Below, piece after piece: positions 4,068-30,193 of a DNA stretch of 64,000 nucleotides. Origin of the DNA: Chloroflexota bacterium (GTDB lineage Bacteria > Chloroflexota > Anaerolineae > UBA7937 > B3-Chlor); contig JAUVXJ010000002.1 of NCBI GenBank assembly GCA_030603665.1, positions 310,001-374,000 on the forward strand. Reading direction: 5' to 3'. Position 1 is the stretch's first letter. Every line of letters begins with the position of its first letter. The notes beneath the pieces were generated by a model. That model did no database searches. It was not told where the DNA came from and saw only the letters and a list, made by a program, of their open reading frames with translations. A program made the position numbers and the translations under genes.

Positions 4068-4146
4068 TCCTGCAGCCTCGCCAAGGCGAAGACTAGCTTA
4101 GAGTGGCTGCTTGGGTTCCGGTTCTGCGCAGCCAGACGGTATCACC

Positions 4147-6438
4147 ATGAACAGACTCATCCGGATCCCCAGGTTCGACCGGGGGTATCTAGTTGTCATA
4201 CTCCTGTCCCTGCCCGTCCTCTGGCCCCTCTTGGAGCCAGCCTACTTGAGTTCTCACGACGGGCTCCATCACCTTTACCGCCTCCTTGACCTGGACTGGT
4301 CCATTCGGGGCGGCGCCCTATACCCCCGCTGGCTGCCCAACCTGGGCTTCGGCTACGGCTACGCCGTGCTCAACTACTACGCCCCTCTCAGCTACTACGT
4401 GGCCGAGTTCTTCCGCCTTTTCGGGGCTGGCTATATAGATGCCCTCAAGCTTACTTACGCCGCCGGGTTCCTCGCTTCCGGCGTGACTATGTACCTTTTC
4501 ACGAAGGAGCACATGGGGCGCTTGCCTGCCATCCTGGCCGGCCTGGTTTATGTCTACCTGCCCTACCACCTGGCGGACGGGTACGTGCGGGGCGCTCTGG
4601 CCGAGTTCCTGGCCTTTCCCTTCTTTCCCCTTATCCTGTGGTGCTTCTACAGGCTCATCACGCAGAAGAAGCTGGAATACATCGCCTGGAGCGCTCTCTC
4701 CCTAGCCGGTCTCTTGGTCACCCACAACCTGCTGACCCTCATCTTCGCCCCCCTCCTGGTGGCTTACATCGGGTTCATCTGGTTCAGGGAACGCGATCGC
4801 AGAGTGCTTTTCTACTGCGCAGTGGCTCTGCTCCTTGCCTTCGGGCTGGGCGCCTTCTACTGGCTGCCAGGCTTCGCGGAATCGAAGTGGGCGCGGCTGG
4901 GCCTGGTGGGCCCTCGGGCCACAGACTACATCCCTAAGCTGATCACCATGGAGGACTTCTTTTCCCCCTACCTTCTCTATCGTTACTTCCCAGAGCAGGG
5001 GGTGTGGCTGGAGCATCCCATCAGCTGGCTCCAGTTCGGGCTGCTGTGTCTCTCCCTGGCCGTGCCGTTGCGACTGCGGCATCCTTCGTGGAATCACGCG
5101 CGGCGTCACATCATCTTCTTCTTGTGGGCGACCTTCGTCTCCCTGTTCATGCTCTTTGTATACTCCCGCCCCTTGTGGGACCATATCCCGCTGATCCCAT
5201 ACCTCCAGTATCCCTTTCGCTTCCTGACCTTGACCAGCTTCACCAGCGCCTTCGCTATCGGGTCCCTGCCCCTACTCCTGGTTGACGGCTCCTCAGAGCA
5301 GATGAAAGCATCCTGGAGCGCCAGAGGCCTCTGGTTACGAGGCCTGGTCCTGACCGTGATCATCGTGGCAGCCCTCATGATCACTGCCTTGCCTGGACTT
5401 CCCATTGGCCCGCAGCATCTGCCCGATCACGAGGAGCCTCTTACGGAGGACACGGTCAACTTCGCCACCATGGCCGAGTACGAATACTTGGTGGGTCTAT
5501 GGGCTAGACTTTGGCCCGATCCCTGGCTGCTGGAGTACCTGCCGGCCTGGGTCGAGGAGGAGCCAGCGGCCATCTTCCTTCCCGTGGAGAAAGAGCCTCT
5601 GGAGCCGGTAGATCTGGGACCTCAACAGGTGCCCCGCGTCACCCTACATGGGCGCGGACCTCTGTCCATGGATCTTACCGTCGTCACGTCCGAACCCATG
5701 ACCCTTTCCTTCCACAGTTTCTACGTGCCCAACTGGGGCGTCTATGTGGATGGCCACAAGCAGGTAGCATATCCCCTCGGAAGGATGGGGTTGTTGGCCG
5801 TGGATATGCCCTCTGGAGAACACCACATCGTAGTGCGGTTCGAGAACACGCCCGCGGAACTCGCGGCCACGATCATCTCCCTGGCCAGCCTGGCGGTGGT
5901 ACTAGCCGTACTCGTTGTCACCAGACGGTGGAAGGCGCTGGGGGCGGGACTTCTATTCTGCCTACTTCTCGCCTCTCTCACAGCCTGGCACGTCTATTCG
6001 TCGCCCTCCACTCAGCACCCTGTGTTTCTGAACGCGAACCTGGGCGATCAATTCAAGCTGGTGGGCTATCATCTGGATAGGGAGTCCTACCGGCCGGGCG
6101 ATACCATCAATGTGACCCTCTACTGGCTTGCCTTACAGGAGATGGATAAGGACTACAAGGTATTCGTCCACCTCACGGATGAGGCCGAGTCGCGTCTGAT
6201 CGCCCAAAGCGACCGCTGGCCCGTCTACAACTTCTCGCCCACCACCCGCTGGGAAGCGGGCGAGATAGTCTGGGACAGACACGAGATTCAGATACCTCTC
6301 GACGAAGAACCAGGAATCTATCGCCTCGCGGCCGGGGCATACCTGTTGGACACCATGCGGAATCTAGACGTTGTGGATGAGAACGGTGATCCTCAAGGGG
6401 TACTTGTGCCCTTGGGCACCACAGAGATCAAGCGGTGA
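4147..6438 (+). CDS. PTPS-related polytopic membrane protein (GT-C-like) with one beta-sandwich module
   Basis: A 763-residue membrane protein. About ten transmembrane segments occupy residues 12-430. An early extracytoplasmic loop carries SSHDGLHHLYR, followed by WLPNLGFGYGYAVLNYYAP, as in 6-pyruvoyl-tetrahydropterin-synthase-related membrane proteins, a GT-C-like family of uncertain substrate. Residues about 505-570 form an extracytoplasmic beta-rich stretch, followed by one or two more membrane spans. Residues about 635-763 are one copy of the cluster's shared beta-sandwich module (PGDTINVTLYW, VFVHLTD, GEIVWDRHEI). A TTG at 4111 is an alternative start, but the ATG at 4147 sits at the usual distance before the first membrane span. 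First gene of the seven-gene cluster. Confidence 0.75.
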   Translation: MNRLIRIPRFDRGYLVVILLSLPVLWPLLEPAYLSSHDGLHHLYRLLDLDWSIRGGALYPRWLPNLGFGYGYAVLNYYAPLSYYVAEFFRLFGAGYIDALKLTYAAGFLASGVTMYLFTKEHMGRLPAILAGLVYVYLPYHLADGYVRGALAEFLAFPFFPLILWCFYRLITQKKLEYIAWSALSLAGLLVTHNLLTLIFAPLLVAYIGFIWFRERDRRVLFYCAVALLLAFGLGAFYWLPGFAESKWARLGLVGPRATDYIPKLITMEDFFSPYLLYRYFPEQGVWLEHPISWLQFGLLCLSLAVPLRLRHPSWNHARRHIIFFLWATFVSLFMLFVYSRPLWDHIPLIPYLQYPFRFLTLTSFTSAFAIGSLPLLLVDGSSEQMKASWSARGLWLRGLVLTVIIVAALMITALPGLPIGPQHLPDHEEPLTEDTVNFATMAEYEYLVGLWARLWPDPWLLEYLPAWVEEEPAAIFLPVEKEPLEPVDLGPQQVPRVTLHGRGPLSMDLTVVTSEPMTLSFHSFYVPNWGVYVDGHKQVAYPLGRMGLLAVDMPSGEHHIVVRFENTPAELAATIISLASLAVVLAVLVVTRRWKALGAGLLFCLLLASLTAWHVYSSPSTQHPVFLNANLGDQFKLVGYHLDRESYRPGDTINVTLYWLALQEMDKDYKVFVHLTDEAESRLIAQSDRWPVYNFSPTTRWEAGEIVWDRHEIQIPLDEEPGIYRLAAGAYLLDTMRNLDVVDENGDPQGVLVPLGTTEIKR

Positions 6439-6481
6439 AGCCTTCTTTGCAGGCAGTTAGCGCACGAAACCGGAGACGGAG

Positions 6482-9436
6482 ATGAGCAGAGTGCAGTCCC
6501 TCCTGAGGAACGAGTGGGTTCTTCTGGGACTTGTGATAGCGATCTCCATCTTCTTCAGGTTCTATCGACTTGATACCATCCCCCTGGGTCTTCATTCCGA
6601 CGAGGCGGTGATGGGCTATCATGCTCGTCACGTCCTGCAAGCGAAGCAGTTTCCCATCTTCTTCGAGGAGAACCGCGGTCAAGAGCCGATGAAGATGTAC
6701 TTGACGGCTCTGCTCCTGCCTCTACTTGGAGAGACTGCCATTGCCATTCGCACCGTCTCCGCCCTGGCAGGGGTCATGACCGTGGCTTTGCTCTACCTGC
6801 TTGTGAAGGAGCTCTTCCCCGAGGAGGACGGCCAAGGAATGCCTTCTTCTATCGGATTGATGGCCGCTCTGTGGCTTGCCTTGTCCTATTGGCACGTGAG
6901 CTACAGTCGACTAGGAATGGAGCCGATCCTCCTGCCCCTGTTTGTCACCATCACCATCTACTTCACCTGGCGAGGCATCAGGTCCGGAAGAAACCTGGAC
7001 TATGCGCTGTCTGGTCTCTTCCTGGGATTGAGTCTCTACACTTACCGGGCTGCCAGGCTGTTTCCTCTTGTGTTTCTTGTGTATGCCGCCGCTTGTTTCT
7101 TGCTGTCGCGACGCCTGCCTAGGCGCCAGTTCGCCAATTGGGTGATCCTCTTCGCGGTCGCTGCGCTGGTCTTTGCCCCTCTGGGGTACTTCGCCCTCAC
7201 CAATTGGGATGTCTACTTCACAAGGGCAGGTGACGTCACGGTCTTCAACCCTGAGCTGAACCAAGGCTCGCCTGTGCGGGCGCTGCTGAAGAGCACAGTG
7301 CAAACAATGGCATCCTTCCTCGTGCTACCAGATCCCAACTGGCGGCAGAATCCGGCCGCTCGCCCCCTTCTGGATCCCGTCACCGGTGTCCTCTTCCTGG
7401 TGGGCTTGGGCATCACCCTTTTCAGATGGCGACGGCCAAACTACCTCTTTATCCTGGTATGGCTGTTCGTGATGGCACTGCCTGCCACCCTGACGGCCTC
7501 TGGCATGCCCCACTCCTCTCGCAGCATCGGCCTCGTGCCGGTGGCTTGCATCCTGCCCGCCATTGGGCTGCATGAGCTTTGCCAATTGCTGAAGAGACGA
7601 AGTCCCTCCAGAGTGATGCTACAGCTTTCCCGGCTCGCAGTCGTCATGGTGTTCTTGCTTGTGGGCGCGTTCACCTACTGGGACTACTTCACAGCCTGGA
7701 GCAGGGACGAGCTACCTCCCGCCTTTGATATGGCCTTTGTGGAAGCGGCCGAGGTCATGAATGTCGTCTCCCAGCCAGATGGCGTCTGGATCCTGCCACT
7801 CACCCCCCTGGCCGACCCAGGCTCCGTTCACTACACCGTGGAATTCCTCTATCAGGGCGACGCACCCCACCATTTCCTGCGCGTAGACGAGGACACTGTC
7901 GCTGAGGAACTGACGGCTATCGCCAAAGGGAGAGACAAGGTATCCGTCGTGGAGTGGGATCCGGCCGTTCTCGGTGGAGCGTATCTCTACCATGCTGACC
8001 CTAAAGGCGTCCTTTCGTATCTGCTCAGCAAGCACGGGGCGGCAAGGGACGAGGGTGGGTTCCACGCCTTCGATGTCCTGAGCTACGGATTGCCTGCCGG
8101 TGTGCATTTCGCCATCGCCGATTCCTTCGAGCCGGTGAACGCCGCTTTCGGCGATCAGATAGCGCTGACAGGGGTGGCGCACGGGGGCTCCGCAGTCGAT
8201 GAAACCGGCGAGACCGCAGACCTGGGGCCACCTGCGGTCCGCTCTGGGGAGCAGGCATGGGTCGCCTTGCGCTGGGAGGCCGTGACCACGCCATCCGCAG
8301 ACTACAAGGCGGCCGCCTACCTCGTGGATAGCCGCGATCGTGTCCTGGCCCAGATGGACAAGGTTTTGCTCAGCAGCCAGATGGAGACCACGACCCAGTG
8401 GGTGTCTGGTCAGGAGGAGATGGACTACTATACTCTGTCCATTCCACCCGCCACTCCACCTGGAGAGTACCAAATCGAGGTGGCGGTCTACGAGGCCGAG
8501 ACCTCGGCCAGACTCCCCGTGCTGGACGCAGAAGGTAGGATGACTGGCCAGAGCAAGAGAGTGGGCTCTATTCAAATCGTCAAGCCGCTTGTCCCCCCTC
8601 AGGTGAAACCGCAGACAGAGATAGCCGACGGCGAGCTCGCGCCCGGCATCAGATTGCTGGGATACGACCTCCCGCTGCGCGAGGTAGAGCCCGGAGGCGT
8701 CCTGCGGCTGGCGCTCTACTGGAATGCTCTCCATGACGTAGAAGAGGACTACGTACTGTCCCTCGAGCTTCGAGACCAAGCGGGACAAGTCCAGATGCAC
8801 TACGAAGAGCGCCCCGTCGATGACAGCTACCCCACCACGCAATGGGAGGAGGGAGAGATTCTGCGGGACTGGCACGATGTCCCGGTGCCCCCAGACACAC
8901 CTCAAGAGGAGTACGAGCTTGTCGTCATTGTGTTGGAGGGCGACGGGGTGCAGGGTCAGGCAAGCCTGGGGTCCGTGGCAGTCAAGGGCCGGCCGCACTA
9001 TTACACAGTTCCCGACATCCAGCACCCCTCCGAGGTCACAGTGGGTGAGAACATCCGGCTGCTGGGGTATGCCCTGGAGAGGGAGCAAGTCAAGCCTGGT
9101 GACACGATCAGACTGACCCTGTACTGGCAGGCCCTCGCGCGTATGGAGACCTCCTACACAGTGTTCACTCATCTCCTCGACGCTGAGCACGGGATCCGCG
9201 GGCAGAAGGACAGCATCCCGGGCAACGGGGCGCTTCCCACCACAAGCTGGGTCGAAGGGGAAGTAATCACAGACCTTTACGAGCTGGTGGTCGACGCTGA
9301 TGCTCCGTCAGGCAGCTACGTTCTGGAGATAGGGGCCTACGACGCAGCGACGGGTCTGCGACTGTCTCTCCACGACGCATCGGGAGAACCCCTGGGCGAC
9401 CGTTTACTGCTGGAGTCCACGGTAGATGTGCAGTAG
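6482..9436 (+). CDS. GT39-like (GT-C) membrane glycosyltransferase with three C-terminal beta-sandwich modules (A-B-C)
   Basis: A 984-residue protein. Residues 1-430 contain about 10-12 membrane spans of the ArnT/PMT (GT39) fold. The first extracytoplasmic loop carries the acidic pair D40-E41 (HSDEAVMGY), the site that binds the metal and lipid-phosphate donor in GT-C enzymes. EPMKMYL and SYWHVSYSRLG follow, as in its paralogues. Such enzymes use a polyprenyl-phosphate sugar and act on the outer membrane face. The tail holds module A (about 545-705, with WVALRW and MDYYTLSIPPATPPGEY), module B (about 712-855, GYDLPLREVEPGG) and module C (about 855-984, TSYTVFTHLLD). It lies 43 bp after the previous gene, with GGAG before the ATG. 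Acceptor and sugar are unknown. Confidence 0.8.
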   Translation: MSRVQSLLRNEWVLLGLVIAISIFFRFYRLDTIPLGLHSDEAVMGYHARHVLQAKQFPIFFEENRGQEPMKMYLTALLLPLLGETAIAIRTVSALAGVMTVALLYLLVKELFPEEDGQGMPSSIGLMAALWLALSYWHVSYSRLGMEPILLPLFVTITIYFTWRGIRSGRNLDYALSGLFLGLSLYTYRAARLFPLVFLVYAAACFLLSRRLPRRQFANWVILFAVAALVFAPLGYFALTNWDVYFTRAGDVTVFNPELNQGSPVRALLKSTVQTMASFLVLPDPNWRQNPAARPLLDPVTGVLFLVGLGITLFRWRRPNYLFILVWLFVMALPATLTASGMPHSSRSIGLVPVACILPAIGLHELCQLLKRRSPSRVMLQLSRLAVVMVFLLVGAFTYWDYFTAWSRDELPPAFDMAFVEAAEVMNVVSQPDGVWILPLTPLADPGSVHYTVEFLYQGDAPHHFLRVDEDTVAEELTAIAKGRDKVSVVEWDPAVLGGAYLYHADPKGVLSYLLSKHGAARDEGGFHAFDVLSYGLPAGVHFAIADSFEPVNAAFGDQIALTGVAHGGSAVDETGETADLGPPAVRSGEQAWVALRWEAVTTPSADYKAAAYLVDSRDRVLAQMDKVLLSSQMETTTQWVSGQEEMDYYTLSIPPATPPGEYQIEVAVYEAETSARLPVLDAEGRMTGQSKRVGSIQIVKPLVPPQVKPQTEIADGELAPGIRLLGYDLPLREVEPGGVLRLALYWNALHDVEEDYVLSLELRDQAGQVQMHYEERPVDDSYPTTQWEEGEILRDWHDVPVPPDTPQEEYELVVIVLEGDGVQGQASLGSVAVKGRPHYYTVPDIQHPSEVTVGENIRLLGYALEREQVKPGDTIRLTLYWQALARMETSYTVFTHLLDAEHGIRGQKDSIPGNGALPTTSWVEGEVITDLYELVVDADAPSGSYVLEIGAYDAATGLRLSLHDASGEPLGDRLLLESTVDVQ

Positions 9437-9460
9437 CGTGAGCGCCGCTGAGGTCCCCTG

Positions 9461-11566
9461 ATGAATAAGACCACAAAGCTGGACATCCTCGCTATCCTGA
9501 TCCTCGTCCTCATCGCCGTCTTCTTCCGCTTCCATCACCTGCAAGAGCTGCCCATTGGACTGTGGCGTGATGAGGCAGCCAATGGTCTAGAGGCACTCCG
9601 CGTCCTCGACGGCGACCTGGCTATCTTCTATGGGACGCGCGAGCCGATGTTCATCTATCTTGTCGCCTTGTCCGTCGGCCTCTTGGGGAGGAACCCCCTC
9701 GCCATTCGTCTCGTCGCAGCCATCGCTGGGACCGCCACCATACCGGTCACCTATCTCCTCTTCAAGGAGGTCTTCAGATGGACCGATCACAGGGTGCGGC
9801 TTCTGGCCTTCCTGACCAGTACCTGGCTAGCCACGTCCTACTGGCACCTCAACTTCAGCCGGCTGGGCTTCCGAGGCGTTCTCCTCCCGCTCTTCGCATC
9901 TCTGTCCTTCTACCTCTTTTGGCGCGGCTGGAACCAGCTCGAACATGGCGCATCGCGGCATCGCACAACCCTGGCTTGGTTCGCCGTCTCCGGACTCTGC
10001 TTCGGCCTCACCTTCTACACCTACACCCCCAGTCGCTTCCTCCCTCTGGTATTGCTTCCGTTCGTTGGGCAGGCGGTGTGGGGGGCCTGGTCCCGCAGAT
10101 CTGAGGCTGAGCAAAAGAGCGATCGCACCGCTCCAGCCAAGCCCCTGGCGGCTCTGTTTGTGTTCTCGGCGTCCTGTCTCCTCATCTTCGCGCCCCTTGG
10201 CGTGCATTTCGTGGCGGACCCCGGGAGCTTCTTCGTCCGGCGCGGTGTCTCCGTTTTCAGCGCTACGGACGACCAGCCCCTGACCACCCTCCTGGCCGAG
10301 AACGTAGTTCACCAGCTTGGCATGTTTGGATTCCTCGCGGATCCCAATACCAGGCACAACCCTGCGGGACGACCGGCATTCGATCTCTTCACCCTTGCGT
10401 TCTTCATGGTCGGCTTCGCACTGAGCCTGCGCCGCTCGAGGAAGCTGCCCTACCTGTTCTGTATAGGCTGGTTCCTCATCATGCTGCTTCCAGCCATCCT
10501 GACCTACCCTGAACTACCCCACTACCTGCGTGCTATCGGCGCCCTCCCGGTGGCCTGCGTATTCCCTGCCTTGGGAGCCGAGGCCGCCTGGGACTGGGTG
10601 CGAGCCAGAACCGAGTCCTTGAAGATGAGATCTGCCTTCGCTGTCATCCTGGGTCTCTGCCTCGCCTTCTCAGCTGTGCTGACCTACCGTGACTACTTCA
10701 CCCCGCGGGTGGAAGAGATCGAACTGGTCAAGGCCTTCGATCCACGGTTCGTGGAAACGGCCGCTCTGATGAATGAGTTGGACGAACCTGGCGCGGTGTG
10801 GATTGTCCCCCTCGGGCCTCACGACGAGCAGAGGATGGCCTACTTCGTCATCGACTTCCTGTACCAGGGTCAGGCACCCCTGCGCTACGTGCACGCGGAT
10901 GAAGAAGCAGTGGCGCGGGAACTCTCCGCATCCAGCCAGGGCAGCGAACGAGCGATGGTGCTGCGTACGACAGAGCACTACCTGACACAGCCATGGTATG
11001 ATCTCTACGCTGACTCGCGGGGGCTGATACCATTCCTATTCGACAAGCACACTCGCCGGTCGGAGACCAAACACTTCGCCAACGTCGACGTTCTGGTCTA
11101 TCAACTCCCGGAAGGCGTGGTGTTCTCCATGCCCAGTGGCCTCCAACCGCAGAAGATAGACTTCGGCGACAGTCTGAAACTGACCGGCATTGCCTCAGGG
11201 TTGAGCTCGGGAGAGCCACGCCAGGCCTGGGTTGCTCTGCAGTGGCAGGTGTCTGCGACCCCAGGCGCTGACTACGGCACGGAGATCGCTCTGATCGACG
11301 AGCAAGGCGAACGGGCAGGAACTATTCACGAGCTCCTCCTCAGCGGTGAGTTGCAGCCCACAAACCGGTGGGATCCCTGGCAGCAAGAGACCAGCTACCA
11401 CAGTTTCACTGGTTTGCCCGATGCTTCCCGAGGCGGATATAGTATACAAGTGTCGGTGTACCCCGTGGATGTGGACAACGGCTGGGAGTTTGCTGGCCCC
11501 ACCGCCGAAGGGGGGACAAGCCTGACAGTGGGTAGCATCTTGCCCACTGTTGCCATATTGGACTAG
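9461..11566 (+). CDS. GT39-like (GT-C) membrane glycosyltransferase with a single A-type module
   Basis: A 701-residue paralogue. The membrane domain (about residues 1-430) has D37-E38 in WRDEAANG, REPMFIYLV, and SYWHLNFSRLG, so the GT39 catalytic landmarks are present. The tail stops after one A-type module (about 560-701, WVALQWQ and LPDASRGGY). Modules B and C of its neighbours are absent and there is no sign of a frameshift, so it may be a natural short form or a deletion product. Start ATG with GAGG about 7 nt upstream, 24 bp after the preceding gene. Confidence 0.8.
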   Translation: MNKTTKLDILAILILVLIAVFFRFHHLQELPIGLWRDEAANGLEALRVLDGDLAIFYGTREPMFIYLVALSVGLLGRNPLAIRLVAAIAGTATIPVTYLLFKEVFRWTDHRVRLLAFLTSTWLATSYWHLNFSRLGFRGVLLPLFASLSFYLFWRGWNQLEHGASRHRTTLAWFAVSGLCFGLTFYTYTPSRFLPLVLLPFVGQAVWGAWSRRSEAEQKSDRTAPAKPLAALFVFSASCLLIFAPLGVHFVADPGSFFVRRGVSVFSATDDQPLTTLLAENVVHQLGMFGFLADPNTRHNPAGRPAFDLFTLAFFMVGFALSLRRSRKLPYLFCIGWFLIMLLPAILTYPELPHYLRAIGALPVACVFPALGAEAAWDWVRARTESLKMRSAFAVILGLCLAFSAVLTYRDYFTPRVEEIELVKAFDPRFVETAALMNELDEPGAVWIVPLGPHDEQRMAYFVIDFLYQGQAPLRYVHADEEAVARELSASSQGSERAMVLRTTEHYLTQPWYDLYADSRGLIPFLFDKHTRRSETKHFANVDVLVYQLPEGVVFSMPSGLQPQKIDFGDSLKLTGIASGLSSGEPRQAWVALQWQVSATPGADYGTEIALIDEQGERAGTIHELLLSGELQPTNRWDPWQQETSYHSFTGLPDASRGGYSIQVSVYPVDVDNGWEFAGPTAEGGTSLTVGSILPTVAILD

Positions 11567-11638
11567 GGTGGGTCTGAAGAAGAGGGTGAGCCAACTGACA
11601 GCTCATTTCCTCGTCCACTCTCTGCGGGAGGGCAGCTA

Positions 11639-13732: not shown

Positions 13733-13804
13733 AAGCATGTGCCCAGAGATGGCGCACCAGCCGCATTTGTGCAAGAGAGACGTGCTCGAGACAGGAGCCT
13801 GACC

Positions 13805-16723
13805 GTGCAAACCTCAAGACGAGAGCTGCTGCTCCTGATACTGATTACGGCTGTTGCCGCCTGTCTCAGGTTCTACAAGCTTGACGAGATACCACCGGGT
13901 CTGAGTGGGGATACGGCCTACAAAGGCGTCGCTGCCAATCGCATCTTGGACGGTGAGTACCCTATCTTCTTCGAGGAGAGTTGGGGCGGCATCGAGCCGA
14001 TGTATATGTACCTGCTGGCGGGCTTCTTCACGCTCTTCGGCTCCACGCCCCTGGCTATCAAGGTACTGTCAGCCGTCATCGGGACGATCACCATACCCGC
14101 CTTCTATTTGCTGGTCAGAGAGCTGCTCAAGTTGAGGATTACAGCACTCCTGGCAGCTGTTTGGCTTGCCATCTCTTTCTGGCATATCAGCTATAGCCGC
14201 TTGGGGTGGGAGATCATCCTGGCGCCTCTTTTCGTCATTGTGACCATCTACTTCCTGTGGCGGGGATTGAGGACCAATCATTGGAGGGAATTCCTCTGCG
14301 CCGGGCTGGCTCTTGGCGCAAGCCTGTACACCTACCAGGCACTCAGGTTCCTGCCCATACTGGTGGTCCTCTATCTTGCACTTCGGGCTCTGCTCGAGAA
14401 GGGGTTCTGGAGAGAGTATCGAGCCAAGGCCGCTGTGTGCGTGGTGATCGCCGTGTTGGTCTTCGCTCCCCTGGGAGCGTATTTCGTTACCCACTCGGAC
14501 ACATTCCTTCGGCGTGCGAGCGAGGTCTCCATCTTCAATCCGGAGAAGAACCCCCAGGGGGCCCTCCACTCCTTTCTTGTCAGCGCAATCAGGATGATTG
14601 GCGCCTACAACCTCCAGGGCGACCCTTACTGGCGCCACAACCTACCTGGACGCCCCGCCTTCGACGTGCTCACGTCAGCCTTCTTCTTCGTGGGGTTGGG
14701 CCTGAGCGTGCTCCGGTGGAGGGAGCGTTCTTACTCTCTCCTGCTGCTGTGGCTACTGGTCATGTCTCTTCCCCCTATCCTCACCCCGCCGCGAGACGTG
14801 CCCCACTTCTCCCGCTCTATCGGAGCCCTTCCCGCCGCGTGTGTCTTTCCGGCCATAGGACTCGAGGGCGCGTGGCGTTGGGTGCGGACTAGATGGCCCT
14901 CCAGTCGGGCCAAGACCATCGCTGCCTGCGGCGTGGCTGCCCTCCTCGTGGCCAGTGCTGCCCTCACCATGCGCGACTACTTCGTACTTTGGGCTGGAAA
15001 CTCCGAGCTGCGGGATCACTATTTCGACGGTGAGTTCGTTGATCTGGCCACAGCGATGAACCAGCTAGATGACCCGGATGGCGTGTGGATTCTGCCCCTC
15101 AGCCCTCTGGCCTCCGCCTACGATGAGGCGGGCCATCACACGGTCGAGTTTCTCTACCGTGGGCAAGCGCCGCTGAACTTCCTTAGCCTGGATGATTCAA
15201 CGGCAGCTGGCGAGCTCGCTGAACTGACGGGCGATCATGCCAAGGTACTCCTCGTTGATCCCAAGAGCTACGTGTTGGAGGAGGCCTACAACTACATAGA
15301 CGCAGATCCGAAGCGACTGGCGCCCTTCCTGCTTGGCAAGTATGGACAGAAGCTGGCACACTACGAATTCGACGCCTTCGACGTCCAGGTCTACACTCTG
15401 CCGACCGGTAGCAGCTTGGAGATCGCCGACCATTTGGACCCTCAGTCCGCCAACTTCGCCGGACAGTTGCTCCTCACGGCGGCTGACTTCGGCGTCTACG
15501 CCGCAGGGAACCCGGGGCAAAGGACGCTTCCCTCTGGCGGGGAGGCGTGGGTCGTGCTTGGGTGGAGCTCTCTCGCAGAGCCGACGACGGACTACAGCGT
15601 GGCACTCTATCTATTGGATCAACGAGAGCGCGTGGTCGGGCAAGTTGACAAACTCCTGCTTGGCAACAACATGCGGGGCACTTCTCATTGGACGCTTGGG
15701 CAGGAGGAGATGGACTACTATGTCCTGCCCAACTTGCCAGCGACGCCCCCAGGAGACTATCATCTCCAAGTGGTGGTCTACGATCCCTCGACCATGACCA
15801 GGCTGGCCCTACAGGATGACGGTGGAAACGTGCTGGGGTATGGGCACACCGTGGACGTAGTCCAGATCATCGAACCACCATCGCCACCAGCGGTCCAGCC
15901 AACGCACATAGTAGACGACGGAGCCTTGGCCCCTGGACTCAGCCTACTGGGTTTTGACCTGCCTCGCGGAGAGGTCAACCCGGGCGACACTGTGGAGATA
16001 GCCCTGTACTGGAAGGCAGTGACAGACGTGGCCCTGGACTATGTGATCCTGATGGAACTGAGGGATGCCCAGGGCCGCACCTTGGCATACGAGGAAAGCA
16101 GACCGGCTTACGGCACCTACCCCACCACACTCTGGAACAAGGGTGTGGTTGTCCGCGACTGGCACGACGTACCGGTGGAGCCCGACGCTCCCGCCGGGCA
16201 GTATGAACTCTACGTGGAACTCATCAGGGATGGTTTACCGATTGGGGAACTGGCCCTAGGCCCGGTCAGCGTTTCGGGCAGAGCTCGATCCTTCGAAGTG
16301 CCCCCCATGGAGCATGAACTGGGGTGGCTACTGGGCGACGGGGTGCGGCTACTCGGATATGACATGGACAAGGGTGCGAGGGTGGGAGCAACTCTGAGAC
16401 TGACCCTCTACTGGCAGTGCGAAACCGAGATGACCAAATCCTATACCGTGTTCACCCACTTGCTGGACAGCGACCACGTGATCAGAGGTCAGCAGGACAG
16501 ACTGCCCGGAGTTCCACAAGCGCCGACGACGAGCTGGATTGAGGGGGAGGTCATCGCCGATCCGTACGAGATAGCGGTGGACCCGGCGGCCCCAGGGGGC
16601 GAATACGTCGTGGAGATAGGCATGTATCATGCAGCTACGATGGAGCGTCTGCGTGTCTATGATGCCCAAGGTGCCATCCAGGGTGATAGCATCCTTCTGC
16701 AGACGGTGCACGTTGAACGGTAG
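13805..16723 (+). CDS. GT39-like (GT-C) membrane protein with three modules; acidic pair altered to Asp-Thr
   Basis: A 972-residue paralogue with a GT39-type membrane domain (about 8-420) and modules A (about 530-690), B (about 700-845) and C (about 846-972). The first-loop acidic pair seen as DE in the paralogues is DT here (LSGDTAYKG, D36-T37), while IEPMYMYLL and SFWHISYSRLG are kept. Loss of the second acid could reduce or change activity. The GTG at 13805 has AGGAG 7 nt upstream and places the first span normally. A GTG at 13739 would add 22 poorly supported residues. It follows the previous gene by about 70 bp. Confidence 0.78.
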   Translation: MQTSRRELLLLILITAVAACLRFYKLDEIPPGLSGDTAYKGVAANRILDGEYPIFFEESWGGIEPMYMYLLAGFFTLFGSTPLAIKVLSAVIGTITIPAFYLLVRELLKLRITALLAAVWLAISFWHISYSRLGWEIILAPLFVIVTIYFLWRGLRTNHWREFLCAGLALGASLYTYQALRFLPILVVLYLALRALLEKGFWREYRAKAAVCVVIAVLVFAPLGAYFVTHSDTFLRRASEVSIFNPEKNPQGALHSFLVSAIRMIGAYNLQGDPYWRHNLPGRPAFDVLTSAFFFVGLGLSVLRWRERSYSLLLLWLLVMSLPPILTPPRDVPHFSRSIGALPAACVFPAIGLEGAWRWVRTRWPSSRAKTIAACGVAALLVASAALTMRDYFVLWAGNSELRDHYFDGEFVDLATAMNQLDDPDGVWILPLSPLASAYDEAGHHTVEFLYRGQAPLNFLSLDDSTAAGELAELTGDHAKVLLVDPKSYVLEEAYNYIDADPKRLAPFLLGKYGQKLAHYEFDAFDVQVYTLPTGSSLEIADHLDPQSANFAGQLLLTAADFGVYAAGNPGQRTLPSGGEAWVVLGWSSLAEPTTDYSVALYLLDQRERVVGQVDKLLLGNNMRGTSHWTLGQEEMDYYVLPNLPATPPGDYHLQVVVYDPSTMTRLALQDDGGNVLGYGHTVDVVQIIEPPSPPAVQPTHIVDDGALAPGLSLLGFDLPRGEVNPGDTVEIALYWKAVTDVALDYVILMELRDAQGRTLAYEESRPAYGTYPTTLWNKGVVVRDWHDVPVEPDAPAGQYELYVELIRDGLPIGELALGPVSVSGRARSFEVPPMEHELGWLLGDGVRLLGYDMDKGARVGATLRLTLYWQCETEMTKSYTVFTHLLDSDHVIRGQQDRLPGVPQAPTTSWIEGEVIADPYEIAVDPAAPGGEYVVEIGMYHAATMERLRVYDAQGAIQGDSILLQTVHVER

Positions 16724-16759
16724 ACCGGTCATCCAAGATCGCCAGGAGAGCTGATCAAC

Positions 16760-19735
16760 ATGTCGCGAGGTCGAAGCTGGGGCAGGGCCGACTCCAAGAA
16801 GATGGAGTACCTGGCTCTCTGCCTGATCGTGCTCCTGGGGGCGATCCTGCGTTTCTACCGGCTGGAGTCCATACCCGTCGGCCTCAGCGGCGACGAGGGA
16901 GCCGACGGCCTGGGAGCAAGACGCATCCTGAGTGGCGAGGAACTCCCCATCTTCATCACCGAGGACTTCGGAGAGGAGCCGATGCACACCTACATGGTGG
17001 CCCTCTCCTTTGCCCTGTGGGGCGTCCAGCTGTGGGCTATTCGCTTCGTCTCTGTTTTCGTTGGCATCATCACCATTCCCGTGATCTTCTGGCTGGCTAA
17101 GGAGTTGCTTCGACAAGAAGGGCGCGGACCCTCGCTTGTACCCATCCTTTCAGCCTTCTTTCTCTCCACCTCTTACTGGCACATTATCTACAGCCGCGCA
17201 GGGCTGGAAGTGGTCGCACTGCCTCTCTTCTCCTGCGCACTGCTGTACTTCCTCTGGCGAGGAATCCGCACCGACAGACGATGGACATTCGTCGTATCCG
17301 GCCTCATACTCGGAGCGAGCCTCTATTCCTATCGCGGAGCGCGCTTCTTGCCCATCCTTCTCTCCGTCTTCTTCGGAGGATGGGTGATCATCAGCCGGGA
17401 ATTCAGACGCCGCCACCTCGTCAATCTGGTCCTCGTGGCCCTGGTGGCGGCCGTCGTGTGCGCTCCTCTGGGCTTATATGCCCTTGCATATCCGGACATC
17501 TTCTTCGCTCGCGAAATGCACGTCTCAATCTTCAACGCTGAGTGGGGCCGAGGCTCGCCTCTCCAGGCTTTTGGCTACGCTGTGGTCAAGACCCTGGGTA
17601 TGTTCAACTTCCAGGGCGACCCGCAGTTCGATCGCAATCCCGGGCGAAGACCGGTCCTTGACCCCATCAGTTCCCTGTGTTTCCTGGTCGGTCTAGCCAT
17701 CGCCCTTTGGCGCTGGAAACGCCCCCACTGGCTGTTCATCGTCGTCTGGTTCCTGGTCATGGCTCTGCCCGGGGCTTTCACCGCCGAGGCTCTCCCCCAT
17801 TTCCACCGTGCCATAGGGGCGCTTCCACCCCTATGTCTGTTGTGCGCTGTGGGAGTATCGTGGGTGAAACAACGTCTGGAGAGCGGTATCACCTGGAGCG
17901 GAGCTCGTGCTACCTCGTGGGCATTCCTGTGCCTGATCCTCGTGTCGACCACCGCGCTCAGCTATCGAGACTACTTCCTCCCCTGGCAAAGACAGCTCGA
18001 TGAGGGTCAGATCATCGGCCGCAGTTTCATGGAGGCTGCAGAGGTGATGAACGCCACCCGCATACCGGGCGGCGTCTGGATCTTGCCCGCTTCGTCTCTG
18101 CGACCACGCAACCTTCCCTACTATGAGGCCAGTTTCCTCTACGACGGTCCTGAGCCCGAGTACACGCTCAACGTTGACGAGAGGACCGCCCCGGCCGAGC
18201 TCTCGGAGATAACACAGGGCCACCAGCGAGCTGCCGTGATCAACTGGAAGGAGTATGTGCTGGAAGAGGCCTATCTCTCGCTGGACTCCGATCCCAAGGG
18301 ACTGCTTGACTTTCTCTTCAGGAAATACGGCAGGCACATCCGCACGGAACCTCACCAGAGCTTCGACCTGGTACTTTACGAGATCCCCCCTGCCACAGAC
18401 TTCGCCATCGCCCAATCGCCGGAGCCCTCAACCGCCCATTTCGGGGGCCAACTCCAGCTCCAGGGCGTGGCCTACGGTGGCTCCTCGTTGCACCCCACCA
18501 GCACCGCGGAAGAAGTGGAGAGCCAGACACTGCCCTCGGGCAAATCAGGGTGGGTAGTCTTACAGTGGCAAGCACTCCAAGACATGGATCTTGACTACAA
18601 GGTGGCTGTGTACCTCCTCGACCCAAGGGGCCGAGTAGCTGGCCAGGTGGATAAGCTGCTGCTCAGCAACTACCTGGAACCCACATCGTTCTGGCAGCCA
18701 GACCAGGAGGAGATGGACTACTACACACTGCCCTCCATGCCAGCCACTCCCCCTGGTGAGTACACCGTTGTGGTCGCCGTGTATGACGCAGAGAGCGGAG
18801 CCAGACTGCCGATCGTCGATGCCGCAACCGACGCCAGCACAAACAGCCTGACCGTGGGCAAACTCCAGGTTGTCAGGCCGCTGGCGCCTCCCCAGGTAGA
18901 ACCCATGGAGCAACTTCCCGCTGACCAAGCGGATATCGCCCCCAGCCTACAACTCCTGGGCTATGACCTTCCTGCTAGAGCCGCCAGTCCCGGCGAAACC
19001 GTGAGAATCGCCCTCTACTGGCAGGCCACCGAGGATCTGACCCACGACTACCTCTTCTCAGTGCAGCTGAGAGACGAAGAAAGACACATCTGGCTGGAAC
19101 AAGAGGGTCGGCCCGTCGATGACACTTATCCGACGACAGAGTGGAAGGACGGGGAGATCATCAAAGACTGGCACGACCTGCGCCTGCCCCCCGATACCTC
19201 GCCCGGCAGCCACGAACTCCTGCTCAAGATCACTGAGGGAGGAGAGGCAGTTGGGGAGACAACCCTCGGCTACCTTGAGGTGGAAGGACGGCCGAGGGTG
19301 TTCTCCGTTCCCGAGATACAGCATCCCATGGAAATGAGACTCGGAGACGGCGCTCTGTTCCTTGGCTACGACTTGATCAGCGATGCGGCCAGACCGGGCG
19401 CTGCCCTGCAGCTCATCCTGTACTGGCAAGCCCTGGAGGAGATGGCGGTGTCCTACACCGTCTTCGCCCATGTCCTGGACGCAGAAGAGCAGGTGTGGGG
19501 CCAGATGGACAGCGTTCCCTTGAGAGGAGAAGCCCCCACGACGAGCTGGGTAGCGGGTGAGGTGATCTCTGACCCCTACGAAATCATGGTGGACGCGGAT
19601 ACTCCCGCAGGTGACTACGTCATCGAGATCGGCATGTATGACGCCAGCACGGGGCGCCGCCTACTGGTGTCCACAGATGAGGCACAGGCGGAGGCAGACC
19701 GTCTCCTCCTCGGGGAGGTACAGATAGTCCAATGA
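16760..19735 (+). CDS. GT39-like (GT-C) membrane glycosyltransferase with three C-terminal modules (A-B-C)
   Basis: A 991-residue paralogue. The membrane domain (about 17-430) carries D45-E46 (LSGDEGADG), GEEPMHTYMV and SYWHIIYSRAG. The tail contains module A (about 560-715, WVVLQWQ and MDYYTLPSMPATPPGEY), module B (about 725-865) and module C (about 866-991, SYTVFAHVLD, GEVISDPYEI). The final ~120 residues are nearly the same as those of the next gene, for example QMDSVPLRGEAPTTSWV, pointing to recent duplication or gene conversion. AGGAGAG precedes the ATG. Predicted to transfer a sugar from polyprenyl phosphate outside the cell; acceptor unknown. Confidence 0.8.
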   Translation: MSRGRSWGRADSKKMEYLALCLIVLLGAILRFYRLESIPVGLSGDEGADGLGARRILSGEELPIFITEDFGEEPMHTYMVALSFALWGVQLWAIRFVSVFVGIITIPVIFWLAKELLRQEGRGPSLVPILSAFFLSTSYWHIIYSRAGLEVVALPLFSCALLYFLWRGIRTDRRWTFVVSGLILGASLYSYRGARFLPILLSVFFGGWVIISREFRRRHLVNLVLVALVAAVVCAPLGLYALAYPDIFFAREMHVSIFNAEWGRGSPLQAFGYAVVKTLGMFNFQGDPQFDRNPGRRPVLDPISSLCFLVGLAIALWRWKRPHWLFIVVWFLVMALPGAFTAEALPHFHRAIGALPPLCLLCAVGVSWVKQRLESGITWSGARATSWAFLCLILVSTTALSYRDYFLPWQRQLDEGQIIGRSFMEAAEVMNATRIPGGVWILPASSLRPRNLPYYEASFLYDGPEPEYTLNVDERTAPAELSEITQGHQRAAVINWKEYVLEEAYLSLDSDPKGLLDFLFRKYGRHIRTEPHQSFDLVLYEIPPATDFAIAQSPEPSTAHFGGQLQLQGVAYGGSSLHPTSTAEEVESQTLPSGKSGWVVLQWQALQDMDLDYKVAVYLLDPRGRVAGQVDKLLLSNYLEPTSFWQPDQEEMDYYTLPSMPATPPGEYTVVVAVYDAESGARLPIVDAATDASTNSLTVGKLQVVRPLAPPQVEPMEQLPADQADIAPSLQLLGYDLPARAASPGETVRIALYWQATEDLTHDYLFSVQLRDEERHIWLEQEGRPVDDTYPTTEWKDGEIIKDWHDLRLPPDTSPGSHELLLKITEGGEAVGETTLGYLEVEGRPRVFSVPEIQHPMEMRLGDGALFLGYDLISDAARPGAALQLILYWQALEEMAVSYTVFAHVLDAEEQVWGQMDSVPLRGEAPTTSWVAGEVISDPYEIMVDADTPAGDYVIEIGMYDASTGRRLLVSTDEAQAEADRLLLGEVQIVQ

Positions 19736-19869
19736 TGGGTGCCAGGCGGTCCCGCCCAGCCAGGAGGCCGTTGAAGACCAACACGATACATAGTGGTGGA
19801 GTTGCTGGGCATGCAGTTGCCCTGCATCCAACCAAGACAGCCGGAGATCGCCGGTTTCCTGGTGCCTAG

Positions 19870-22704
19870 ATGATGTCTGCTGCCGTAGACACTCTCGTGC
19901 AATTCGCTGGCCCCGTGCTCGCCGGTCTGGCAGCGGCTGCTTTGGCCCACAGATGGCGACATAGAATCCAGGCTGGGATAGACCGCTGCAAGTCACTCAT
20001 CCCACCACGGCGAGCCTCCAGGGCCTCCTTGGTCTTCATCACCATAGTCTACATCGCAACCTTCTCCACGCTCTCCTTGGTGGCGCACTTCAACTTCCAT
20101 ACCCACAACGATCTGGCGATACATGCTCAAGTCATGTGGAACACGACTCAGGGCCGTTGGTTCGATACCACCCTCCTGGAGGACCGCCCAACCAACTACC
20201 TGGGCCACCACTTCTCGCCGGCTCTCCTGCTTCTCATGCCTCTCTACATCCTTTGGCCCGATGCAGCCTTGCTGTTAGTGGCGCAAACCTTCATTCTTGC
20301 GTTAGGGGTGGTGCCCATCTATCTCTATGCTCGTCGTGTGACCGGTAGCGAGATGGTCGCCGCCGCCCTGTCTGCAGCCTATTTGCTCTACCCTGCCCTG
20401 CACTACACCAATCTGTTTGATTTCCACGAGATTGTGTTGGCCGTACCGCTGCTCTCCTTCACGGCATACTGGTTGCTGACCGGGCGGTATCGCCTGTTCT
20501 TCGTCTTCTTGGCGTTGTCCCTGTTGGTGAAGGAAGAAATGATCCTCGTGGCCCTAGCCTTTCCCTGCTATCTCATCCTGGTGCAGAGGAAACGCCGCCT
20601 GGGACTCATGGCATTGCTTCTGGTCTTGCTCTCGGGTTTCCTGATCATAGGTGTAGCCATGCCCGCCCTGAGGGGAGATGCGTACTTTCCAAAGGGGCGC
20701 TACGACTACTTGGGCGCCACCGTCGGCGAAGTGGCCCGCTCGTTGGTGCTCAATCCCGCACTGGTCTTCCAGCACCTTGTGATACCAGCCAAGATCGAGT
20801 TCCTCTTGCTTCTACTCGTGCCTCTCGGTCTACTGCCCTTGTTGGGTCTCGACACGCTGATCTTCGCCCTACCCACTCTAGCGTATCTTCTGCTAAGTGA
20901 CTACGAACCACAGTATTCCATCACCTACCATTATGCCTCCCCTATGATCCCATTCCTGTTCTTGGCTGCCGCGACGGGAATAGGGCGACTGATGCGCTGG
21001 AGTGGGGGCTCCCTGGCAGTTGCCGCATCCGCCTTTGTTCTGGCTGCCAGCTTGGCGAGCTATCTACTCCACAGCCCAGGACCTCTAGCCAGGCATTTCA
21101 ACGAGAACAATGAATACGCCATCTGGCCGCACCTGCGCTCGGGCTACAGTGCTCTTGCCGCCATTCCCCCCGAGGCGCCGCTAATGACACCAGAGGAGTT
21201 CGCCCCCCATCTGGCGCAGAGAGAGCAAATCTACATCGAGAACGAGAACTACCTCCCTGTTGAATACATCCTACAGGAGACTGTGGCGCGGACGGCGAGT
21301 CCTCGCTATCCAGCTTTGATTCCAGACAGCAGAGGATTGCTCTACCCCTATTCCGAAACCGTCTTTGACCAGGATGGATACTGGGTTCGACGGTACGTGG
21401 AGTCTGTCCCCATCTCCCACGACGTGGTGGTGAGTTTTGACGACACACTAACCCTGCTGGCATATCAGTGGCGAGACGATCAAGGCCGCCCCCTTGCCCA
21501 AATAGTACCCGGAGCATACCTGGATCTATTGGTCGCCTGGAGGGCCGAGGGTCAGGCACTGGAGAGATACACCTTCTTCGTTCATCTCCTGGATCCGCAG
21601 TTCCATCGCCTGTCGCAAGTGGACCAGGAGGTGGAGGGGGGGGTCTATCCCACCGATCTGTGGGAGCCCGGGATGGTGGTTGCCGACCACTACAGGCTGA
21701 GCGTGCCCTGGGGCACCCCACCCGGCGAATACCACGTTCTCATCGGGGCCTACTCCAGCAGCAGCGGGCAGCGCCTGCCCCCAAAGTGTGGTGCGTGCGT
21801 CGTGCGAGACAACGCCCTCATTCTGGCCCCAGTTCAAGTGGTCAGACCCGCCTCTCAAGCGCCGCCGGGAGCCGTATCTCCCCAGCACCCCTTGAACATA
21901 CGCTTCAATAGCGAGATCGAGTTAGTTGGCTTTGATCTTGGATTGACTTCCATGCAACCAGGGGACACGGTCCCCCTCATCCTGACTTGGCGCGCCCTGG
22001 CCGATGTCACAGACACATATGCGATTTCGCTCGTGCTCGACCAGACGGATGGTGCCACCAGGCTGAGGTGTCTGGAGGAGCCAATCGGTCTCACGTACCC
22101 TTCCAGCGGATGGAAACGCTCCGAAGTCGTGCGGGACTGGCACGACATACATGTGCCCCTCGACGCGCCGCCGGGCAAGCACGAGCTCCTGCTGGAGGTC
22201 CGCCGGGGAGATGAGGTGATCGGCGAAACAAGCTTGGGACACGTCACAGTCTCTGGACGGATCCGGCAATTCGCTCTTCCCGAGATAGAGCACCCCACGG
22301 CAGCCAGAATCGGCGAGGGAGCGCTGCTTCTGGGATACGACCTCAGCAGCCAGGGGATAAGACCGGGCGACACGTTACGGTTCACCCTCTACTGGCAAGC
22401 TCTCGAGGAAATGCCCGTCTCGTACACAGTGTTCACTCACCTCCTGGACAAGGAAGGGCAGATCTGGGGCCAGATGGACAGCGTTCCTCTCAGAGGCGAA
22501 GCCCCCACCACAAGCTGGGTGACAGGAGAAATCATCTCTGACCAGTATGACATAGTCGTGGACCCAGAGGCCCCACCAGGCAACTACGTGATCGAAATCG
22601 GCGTGTATGACCCCAGCACGGGGCAGCGTTTGCCCGTCTTCGCGAACGGCCATAGCGAAGAGGGAGACAGGCTTCTGCTCGAGGAGGTCAAGATACTGCC
22701 GTGA
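19870..22704 (+). CDS. DUF2079-family polytopic membrane protein with three beta-sandwich modules
   Basis: A 944-residue protein. The membrane domain (about 8-430) matches DUF2079: HFNFHTHNDLAIHAQVMWN, LGHHFSPALLLLMPLY, and LFDFHEI followed by VKEEMI. DUF2079 proteins are GT-C-like and usually sit in glycan loci, but no reaction is assigned. The tail begins with a diverged module (about 495-655) and continues with module B (about 675-815) and module C (about 820-944). Module C is almost identical to that of the preceding GT39-like protein, although the membrane domains are unrelated, which suggests the tail moves between enzymes. The 134-bp gap before it is the largest inside the cluster. Confidence 0.78.
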   Translation: MMSAAVDTLVQFAGPVLAGLAAAALAHRWRHRIQAGIDRCKSLIPPRRASRASLVFITIVYIATFSTLSLVAHFNFHTHNDLAIHAQVMWNTTQGRWFDTTLLEDRPTNYLGHHFSPALLLLMPLYILWPDAALLLVAQTFILALGVVPIYLYARRVTGSEMVAAALSAAYLLYPALHYTNLFDFHEIVLAVPLLSFTAYWLLTGRYRLFFVFLALSLLVKEEMILVALAFPCYLILVQRKRRLGLMALLLVLLSGFLIIGVAMPALRGDAYFPKGRYDYLGATVGEVARSLVLNPALVFQHLVIPAKIEFLLLLLVPLGLLPLLGLDTLIFALPTLAYLLLSDYEPQYSITYHYASPMIPFLFLAAATGIGRLMRWSGGSLAVAASAFVLAASLASYLLHSPGPLARHFNENNEYAIWPHLRSGYSALAAIPPEAPLMTPEEFAPHLAQREQIYIENENYLPVEYILQETVARTASPRYPALIPDSRGLLYPYSETVFDQDGYWVRRYVESVPISHDVVVSFDDTLTLLAYQWRDDQGRPLAQIVPGAYLDLLVAWRAEGQALERYTFFVHLLDPQFHRLSQVDQEVEGGVYPTDLWEPGMVVADHYRLSVPWGTPPGEYHVLIGAYSSSSGQRLPPKCGACVVRDNALILAPVQVVRPASQAPPGAVSPQHPLNIRFNSEIELVGFDLGLTSMQPGDTVPLILTWRALADVTDTYAISLVLDQTDGATRLRCLEEPIGLTYPSSGWKRSEVVRDWHDIHVPLDAPPGKHELLLEVRRGDEVIGETSLGHVTVSGRIRQFALPEIEHPTAARIGEGALLLGYDLSSQGIRPGDTLRFTLYWQALEEMPVSYTVFTHLLDKEGQIWGQMDSVPLRGEAPTTSWVTGEIISDQYDIVVDPEAPPGNYVIEIGVYDPSTGQRLPVFANGHSEEGDRLLLEEVKILP

Positions 22705-22883: not shown

Positions 22884-23990
22884 ATGCGCATCGGGATTGA
22901 TGCCCGACTGGTCCACTATAGCCGAGCGGGTATCGGGCAATACATAGCTGGCCTGATAAAGGGATTAAGTGAGTGCGATGAGGACAATGAGTTTGTCCTC
23001 CTCCAGAGTCGCAAGGACAAATCCATCCTGGCTGACACGTCCAACTTCACCAGGAAATCCCTCTGGACCCCCAGCCACCATCGGCTAGAGCAGCTGGTTC
23101 TGCCCATCGAGATCAGCCCGCTGCGTCTCAATGTACTTCACAGTCCTGATTTCATCCCGCCGTTTCGGCGTGACTACAAATCAGTGATCACCGTCCACGA
23201 TCTGGCCTTTCTTCTCTACCCTCATTTCCTCACGGAAGAGAGCGCCCGATACTACGGCCAGATAGACCAAGCGGTGAGACACGCTGACCACATCATCGCC
23301 GATTCCGTCAGCACCAAGCGTGATATCATCAACTTCTTGGGCGTACCCGAAGCCAAGATCACAGTCATCTACGCAGCGGCAGATCGCGTCTATCGCCCCA
23401 TCGAAGATGAAGATCTCCTCGATCAGACGCAGCGACGTTACGGCCTTGACAAGCCATTCATACTCTTCGTCAGCACCATTGAGCCCAGGAAGAACCTGCC
23501 AACCCTCTTGCGCGCCTTTCGCCGACTGCTGGATCACTACAAACTAGAGGTGCAGCTGGCCGTGGCGGGACAACGCGGTTGGTTCTGCGGCGAGGTCTTC
23601 GCAGTAGCCGAGGAACTGGAGCTGGGGGATACTGTCGTCTTCCTGGGCCATGTGCCCGAAGATGACCTAGTGGTGCTGTATAACGCGGCTCGCATGCACG
23701 TGCACCCTTCCTTCTACGAAGGCTTTGGACTTCCGCCCCTAGAAGCCATGACCTGCGGCACCCCCACCATCGTAGCCAACGTATCCTCGCTCCCTGAGGT
23801 GGTAGGCGACGCCGCGCTGCTGGTCGGGCCAGAGCACACCGAGGGCTGGACTGTGGCCATGTGGCGGCTCCTCACCGACGACTCGCTCCATGCGGAGTTG
23901 GCGGAGAAAGGTCTTAGGCGAGCCAGGCTATTCTCCTGGGAGAAGGCTGCCCGACGCACACTCGAGCTCTACAGTCGATTGGCCGGATGA
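22884..23990 (+). CDS. Glycosyltransferase family 4
   Basis: A 368-residue cytoplasmic GT-B retaining glycosyltransferase. The N-terminal Rossmann domain starts with MRIGIDARLV and contains a Gly-rich loop (SRAGIGQY). The C-terminal domain holds the nucleotide-sugar motif EGFGLPPLE (E279 and E287, the E-x7-E signature) and FVSTIEPRKNLPTLLRAF. The family commonly adds mannose or rhamnose to lipid-linked glycans from NDP-sugars at the inner membrane face. Its stop overlaps the next start (ATGA), so the two transferases are translationally coupled. Length is normal. Confidence 0.88.
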   Translation: MRIGIDARLVHYSRAGIGQYIAGLIKGLSECDEDNEFVLLQSRKDKSILADTSNFTRKSLWTPSHHRLEQLVLPIEISPLRLNVLHSPDFIPPFRRDYKSVITVHDLAFLLYPHFLTEESARYYGQIDQAVRHADHIIADSVSTKRDIINFLGVPEAKITVIYAAADRVYRPIEDEDLLDQTQRRYGLDKPFILFVSTIEPRKNLPTLLRAFRRLLDHYKLEVQLAVAGQRGWFCGEVFAVAEELELGDTVVFLGHVPEDDLVVLYNAARMHVHPSFYEGFGLPPLEAMTCGTPTIVANVSSLPEVVGDAALLVGPEHTEGWTVAMWRLLTDDSLHAELAEKGLRRARLFSWEKAARRTLELYSRLAG

Positions 23991-26363: not shown

Positions 26364-26365
26364 TA
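26360..26365 (+). promoter_or_regulatory. Extended -10 promoter before the methyltransferase gene
   Basis: TGGTATAAT gives an extended -10 (TATAAT at 26360-26365), 28 bp before the start codon. No good -35 box is visible at the expected distance. It overlaps the end of the GT9 gene. Confidence 0.5.
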
Positions 26366-26393
26366 GCACACAATCCTAGATCTGGGAGCAAGC

Positions 26394-28555: not shown

Positions 28556-28574
28556 GCCTCGGGGCAAGGGGCGG

Positions 28575-30075: not shown

Positions 30076-30115
30076 TGCCGAAAACCTCTCCTTCACTCGT
30101 GGAAAACTGTCCGAG

Positions 30116-30144
30116 AGCATATCCCATCGCAGGGAAGGTGTCAA
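30116..30144 (-). promoter_or_regulatory. Promoter of the polysaccharide deacetylase gene
   Basis: Minus strand: TTGACA (30144-30139), a 17-bp spacer, TATGCT (30121-30116). The transcript would begin near 30110 and carry GGAGAGG ahead of the TTG start. Confidence 0.65.
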
Positions 30145-30193
30145 GTACTCAGCCTTCCTCTCATGAAGGCGCCCGCGAGCATCCCACCGCTGT

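Follow-up and report, generated by a model that had tools for sequence, protein, structure and literature searches.

Introduction

Single enzymes in which a GT-C membrane part is joined to a binding module are already known, and include EmbC, AftD and GT136. In EmbC the C-terminal module binds the acceptor (PMC3044687), and the mycobacterial arabinosyltransferases EmbC and AftD are both GT-C proteins that attach to acceptor arabinan through their C-terminal modules (PMC3044687, PMC11127046). In GT136 ORF12, a GT-C ribosyltransferase of Citrobacter youngae, the membrane part is followed by a C-terminal Ig-like module that binds the acceptor O polysaccharide, yet is dispensable for activity under the conditions tested (PMC11127046). 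A further sugar-binding domain, Wzt_C (PF14524), which recognizes the terminal sugar of a polysaccharide, is a beta-sandwich that occupies a C-terminal place on a glycan-handling membrane system, the O-antigen ABC transporter, and its pocket contains Trp362 (PMC9445017).

The envelopes of Chloroflexota are poorly known, and no description of GT-C enzymes of this phylum was found in the open-access literature. Here, we analyze a seven-gene cluster in a 64,000-nucleotide stretch of a Chloroflexota genome (contig JAUVXJ010000002.1, positions 310,001 to 374,000), the whole of which is referred to as the window. The genome holds ~55 PMT_2-type frames, half of which carry a tail built from the module described below. 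On balance, we are inclined to think that this module is an extracytoplasmic, Wzt_C-like carbohydrate-binding domain placed on the tails of Chloroflexota GT-C proteins, and that its last copy holds the growing or acceptor glycan.

Results

A seven-gene cluster carries 14 copies of one module

The + strand of the window carries seven ORFs arranged head to tail (4111-22704), 6-134 nt apart. The first protein, p1 (4111-6438; 775 aa), is GT-C-like, matches PTPS_related (PF10131, E 7.8e-11) and has one C-terminal module of the terminal type (6037-6435; 156 bits); position 4147, at which the preliminary description began the cluster, is an inner ATG of this ORF. The PTPS_related part of p1 is separated from its module by a soluble stretch with weak similarity to YfhO (E 0.075) and by two further membrane segments. 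p2 (6482-9436; 984 aa) is a GT39-like PMT_2 protein (PF13231, E 6.9e-15) that ends in modules A (8147-8584), B (8627-8980) and C (9044-9433), the last of which is terminal and bears the full conserved site described below. The same layout is found in p5 (13739-16723; 994 aa; PMT_2, E 2.6e-14), with modules at 15470-15880, 15923-16276 and 16334-16720, and in p6 (16760-19735; 991 aa; PMT_2, E 7.7e-11), with modules at 18467-18880, 18938-19297 and 19343-19732; in both, terminal module C has the full site, and that of p6 is the copy modelled with AlphaFold. p3 (9461-11566; 701 aa; PMT_2, E 4.6e-6) has one divergent, degenerate module of A type lacking the site (11147-11554), and no module was detectable in p3 homologues of sister genera. 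p7 (19870-22704; 944 aa) is a DUF2079 protein (PF09852, E 2.5e-72) whose three modules comprise module 1 (21421-21849), module 2 of B type (21901-22266) and module C (22312-22701), a sister of p6 module C with 67% identity.

The remaining protein, p4 (11639-13732; 697 aa), is polytopic, and a search with the last module of p6 found no copy in it. The protein scan assigned p4 to no clear family, though in the genome search its frame scored 30.4 bits, enough to reach the cut-off for PMT_2. A soluble-looking stretch of ~140 residues lies between the first hydrophobic segment of p4 and its remaining membrane segments.

The last module of p6, used as the only seed against the seven cluster proteins, identified three copies each in p2, p5, p6 and p7 and one each in p1 and p3, so that the copies of this ~130-residue module, which the preliminary description had put at about 14 on six of seven consecutive polytopic proteins, number exactly 14. 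The p3 module was weak with this single seed (E 0.009), yet scored 116 bits with the family model. The description of four three-module proteins, three of them in A-B-C order, is also confirmed: the order is valid for p2, p5 and p6, and module 1 of p7, which is not of A type, carries a terminal-type site and groups with terminal modules in the tree. In the alignment of the cluster copies W28, Y38 and W69 are invariant and seven positions (G19, L26, L44, D46, T66, D77 and G90) are near-invariant, a conservation that goes beyond a shared hydrophobic pattern.

In the proteins scanned, no Pfam or NCBIfam model exceeded its cut-off on the module, and a sequence search of the PDB with the module gave weak matches only. 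We thus reject its identification with a known Pfam or NCBIfam domain; neither does it behave, in the Chloroflexota genomes searched, as a generic domain found on many unrelated proteins, since no curated family fits and nearly all carriers are GT-C-like.

Downstream of the cluster, and on the same strand, lie genes for two GT4 proteins, a GT9 protein and a methyltransferase (22884-27161), which account for cytoplasmic glycan steps. They are followed at 27272-34009 by an EPSP-synthase/MurA-type enzyme, a polysaccharide deacetylase and a LytR-CpsA-Psr protein, which point to envelope glycan assembly. Related clusters exist in two other genera of the same family. In G301 the order is p1, p2, p3, a p5-like gene, three p6-like genes, a p4-like gene and a shorter one-module gene, followed by a GT4 gene with 82% identity to that of the window; in G302 it is p1, p3, p5, p6, a p4-like gene and a one-module gene, followed by GT4, GT4, GT9 and methyltransferase. 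The first GT4 gene therefore adjoins the cluster in both sister genera, and all four downstream genes do so in one of them. No p7-like DUF2079 gene was found at the cluster position in G301 or G302.

The membrane parts resemble GT-C glycosyltransferases

The preliminary description had also noted that similar tails are attached to different membrane families, and Pfam agrees, with PMT_2 in p2, p3, p5 and p6, PTPS_related in p1 and DUF2079 in p7. The model of whole p6 (pLDDT 89.7, pTM 0.76) matched the folds of STT3 (7oci and 6ezn), ArnT (5f15, TM 0.60 by target) and AftD (6w98), and it is to this p6 model alone that the assignment of a polytopic GT-C fold refers. In GT-C enzymes the catalytic acid is located after the first helix. 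A conserved acid in the first outer loop is present here as well: D45, which follows TM1 of p6, is shared by at least 90% of the sequences in the 27-row p6 alignment.

These data bear on the possibility that the proteins are not active glycosyltransferases and that their tails serve, for example, to transport or sense surface glycans. No tested activity was found in the literature for DUF2079 or PTPS_related, and DUF2079 is named in no open paper searched, which leaves some room for such a role; but the likeness of the p6 model to STT3 and ArnT, the retention of D45 in the p6-related set and the position of the cluster beside GT4, GT4, GT9 and methyltransferase genes make it highly improbable in our estimation.

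The module is widespread in the genome and in the phylum

A profile search of the genome (4.19 Mb, 32 contigs), with carriers gathered from 18 contig stretches and the window, gave 64 matches, corresponding to about 64 copies on 36 proteins, and the proposal that the module is confined to this cluster was therefore rejected. Copies per carrier range from one to four. Polytopic proteins make up 35/36 carriers; in all of these the modules follow the main membrane part, and they almost always form the extreme C-terminus. GT-C type Pfam matches above cut-off (PMT_2, PTPS_related, DUF2079 or TMEM260-like) were obtained for 34/36, and one further carrier has a GT87 match slightly below cut-off. All three DUF2079 proteins of the genome have the module. 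The PMT_2 frames are divided, 28/55 with and 27/55 without it when counted by overlapping coordinates, which indicates that GT-C chemistry does not need the module.

The genome surveys were centred on this phylum, and their figures apply to Chloroflexota. The module is present in 87/301 genomes of the phylum sample and in 145/150 sampled relatives, the five negatives representing one family. Every complete carrier retrieved from other genomes is polytopic, with the module close to the C-terminus, and 43 of 57 such carriers scanned match PMT_2, the others matching PTPS_related, DUF2142, DUF6541 or TMEM260. One contig scan outside the phylum sample had a Chloroflexi MAG as its sole match, and a search of 72,556 plasmids gave only one doubtful match (25%, E 0.5). 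The preliminary description had treated the module as a property of the seven-gene cluster, a view that does not survive these results: with 30 further carriers in the same genome and others across the phylum, a cluster-specific scaffold is unlikely, and so is the suggested assembly of the seven enzymes into one complex.

Some carriers and lineages deserve separate mention. Two adjoining PTPS_related proteins of the same genome (C18:435446-441244; 933 aa and two modules each) have near-duplicate tails. In two PMT_2 proteins (C8:127789-130143 and C8:135180-137597), TPR repeats separate the membrane part from the module, a layout that we take to be reminiscent of eukaryotic TMTC proteins. Within the same class, the sampled genomes listed for families f2 and f5 and the single f12 genome are without the module, and nearly all other sampled families have it. 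A three-module frame of G209 (L170:4222-6579) was considered as a second soluble carrier and was not counted; its N-terminal part is arginine-rich and probably out of frame, owing to a frameshift or an assembly error.

The predicted module fold is closest to the Wzt carbohydrate-binding domain

AlphaFold modelling of p6 module C with 118 relatives gave a seven-stranded beta-sandwich (pLDDT 96.2, pTM 0.89). Its best solved matches in Foldseek are structures of the Aquifex Wzt carbohydrate-binding domain (6o14, 8dky and 8dl0), with E 3e-4 and TM 0.61-0.63 for the ligand-free 6o14 and for 8dky, which contains 3-O-methyl-mannose. The model thus has a Wzt-type beta-sandwich fold, as judged from its top PDB matches and TM values of up to 0.63, in a search that returned 1979 matches up to E 10, the Ig-like sandwich being a very common fold.

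At the sequence level and with an E limit of 0.1, 5/118 modules matched Pfam Wzt_C, the strongest with E 2.6e-5, and none of the scanned proteins exceeded the Pfam gathering cut-off. Scans of the window proteins (E up to 1) and of the genome's 30 remaining carriers (E up to 0.001) gave no Wzt_C match. An hhalign comparison of the module profile with 20 Chloroflexota Wzt_C domains gave E 2.7e-4 and a probability of only 42%; its score of 27.8 was equalled by none of 60 column shuffles (11.8 +/- 2.5, highest 24.5). Sequence evidence for kinship with Wzt_C is hence weak, though in agreement with the fold. No ABC-transporter nucleotide-binding domain was found ahead of the module, the carriers being polytopic GT-C-type proteins.

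A set of positions is kept mainly in terminal copies

Core positions are kept about equally in terminal and upstream modules. In contrast, nine positions (F42, H44, Q55, D57, T67, W70, G98, R107 and D120 in model numbering) are kept mainly in last or single modules, and probably form a putative surface site; strand spacing suggests that F42, H44, Q55 and D57 could lie on one hairpin face. As the nine positions had been picked from the comparison of terminal and upstream modules itself, they were re-scored on 36 later loci, a largely independent set of which few places overlap the first. There, terminal modules scored 8.70/9 and upstream modules 4.33 (p 1e-15), whereas the corresponding core scores were 8.66 and 8.07 (p 5e-4).

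This pattern bears on a purely structural role, in which the tails would be Ig-like spacers or lids that aid folding or shield the extracytoplasmic enzyme part, with no ligand. Upstream copies that have lost the site while keeping the core would suit such a role, as would the alpha/beta part that the p6 model places between the membrane domain and the tail (about 421-541). A pure spacer is nevertheless unlikely to retain a particular group of polar and aromatic residues mainly in its last copy, and would be unexpected on the Tat-exported protein described in the next section, so that we regard a structural role as quite unlikely.

Terminal modules cut across GT-C families

In a tree of 60 modules of the genome, in which many branches are weak, modules labelled 'last' cluster strongly (10 changes versus 19.4 when shuffled, 0/500), and those labelled PMT_2, TMEM260 or DUF2079 do not. 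Tails cut across GT-C families, and there is no one-to-one link between tail and family. Module C of p7 branches as the sister of module C of p6 and falls within the p6 group from the sister genera (100/93, and 97/90 in a terminal-only tree), despite the membrane parts of p6 and p7 belonging to different families. AU tests against a p6-only clade were mixed (p 0.10 and 0.03), and on these phylogenies it is likely that p7 received its terminal module as a copy from p6.

A single secreted carrier was found, a DUF3604 protein with a Tat signal and a PHP-like DLHVHT motif (G000:C8:138007-139623; L082:17508-19121), which ends in one terminal-type module with the full nine-position set. Five DUF3604 homologues, namely a paralogue in the same genome (63% identical) and proteins of G301, G303, G321 and G352, end without a module. 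The nearest kin of the DUF3604 module is located on a GT-C gene 2.8 kb upstream, and these relationships suggest that the module may have been copied from the neighbouring gene.

Among carriers of the genome without detectable membrane homology, terminal modules are 37.5% alike within a cluster versus 31.7% (permutation p 0.0002). Three other genomes gave no such signal in this test (p 0.57, 0.57 and 0.16), and a general rule that tails go with the gene cluster and not with the enzyme, which held in this genome only, was thus rejected.

The recurrence of the same positions on many enzymes suggests a shared ligand, and for this reason a docking function has to be weighed, in which the terminal module would act in a dockerin-like manner on a common protein or envelope scaffold, such as an S-layer protein, a wall polymer or a complex subunit, bringing various GT-C enzymes and now and then a secreted enzyme together in a single location, and its ligand would not be the acceptor. 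Such a function would account for a site that is near-invariant across GT-C families and genomes, for terminal modules that group by position and not by GT-C family, and for a secreted protein other than a glycosyltransferase that has a terminal-type module while its homologues have none. The best structural relatives of the module bind sugar, though, and the module is spread over many loci instead of being tied to one complex; we therefore judge docking to be unlikely. There is a bolder reading, which we rate as somewhat unlikely: the terminal module would be a mobile, phylum-wide recognition tag with one conserved site, copied between neighbours and steering unrelated GT-C families and occasional secreted enzymes to one common envelope ligand. 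If true, extracytoplasmic glycan assembly would here be served by a modular targeting system with a dockerin-like logic not described before.

Discussion

The preliminary description had proposed that the module does something common to all its carriers, and of the roles that it named the binding of an acceptor glycan is the best reading, since the fold is closest to a carbohydrate-binding domain and the module is extracytoplasmic and found on several GT-C families. Its placement outside the cytoplasm follows from the GT-C fold of the carriers and from the secreted carrier with a Tat signal. In acceptor-glycan binding, the membrane part would transfer a sugar from a polyprenyl-phosphate donor at the external face of the membrane, as the GT-C families and the p6 fold imply, and the tail would lie on the same side as the transfer reaction. 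Through the putative surface site (F42, H44, Q55, D57, T67, W70 and R107), the last module would then keep the glycan, whether growing or acceptor, close to the active site, and the upstream modules, in which this site is mostly lost, may serve as spacers or as sites of other specificity.

We infer sugar binding by the module, the identity of its ligand and its acceptor-holding role. Since a nearly identical site recurs on many enzymes, a shared component such as a common core or wall glycan is a more likely ligand than the product of each enzyme. The carriers presumably make different products, and for a near-invariant site on such enzymes a common partner fits as well as an acceptor glycan.

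If acceptor binding is the true role, it would mean for GT-C enzymology that this function can come from an exchangeable tail, and the module offers a case in which the passing of a binding module from one enzyme family to another can be tested. Its presence on many GT-C families, with one site in the last copy, provides a handle on what these enzymes act on, and a family model could name hundreds of unannotated protein tails.

The design had been thought to be without a described counterpart. The module family does appear to be undescribed so far, as do its occurrence across GT-C families and its arrangement in tandem tails, but the single enzymes mentioned in the Introduction combine GT-C parts with binding modules. 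RbmA of Vibrio cholerae (PF22021), a tandem FnIII biofilm protein, resembles the module in a profile match over one hairpin (E 0.018, under cut-off) and is also a fold match, its tandem having been found in the fold comparison of the whole p6 model; it is, in contrast, a secreted matrix protein without an enzyme part. Wzt_C shares with the module the beta-sandwich, the C-terminal place and a weak sequence and profile similarity, but is cytoplasmic, resides on an ABC ATPase and dimerizes by strand exchange, whereas the present module is extracytoplasmic, located on GT-C enzymes and often in tandem. Of the arabinosyltransferases, AftD ranks with the best matches to the p6 fold; the module of EmbC is a jelly-roll, lectin-like domain with a mixed subdomain, for which no sequence relation to the present module was found. 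Judged from its fold, its location and its conserved polar and aromatic residues, the Chloroflexota module most likely works as do those of EmbC and GT136 ORF12. The latter, to which it is likened by architecture, represents one enzyme with one module, whereas here the module occurs on many GT-C families, in one to four copies per protein and on dozens of proteins per genome.
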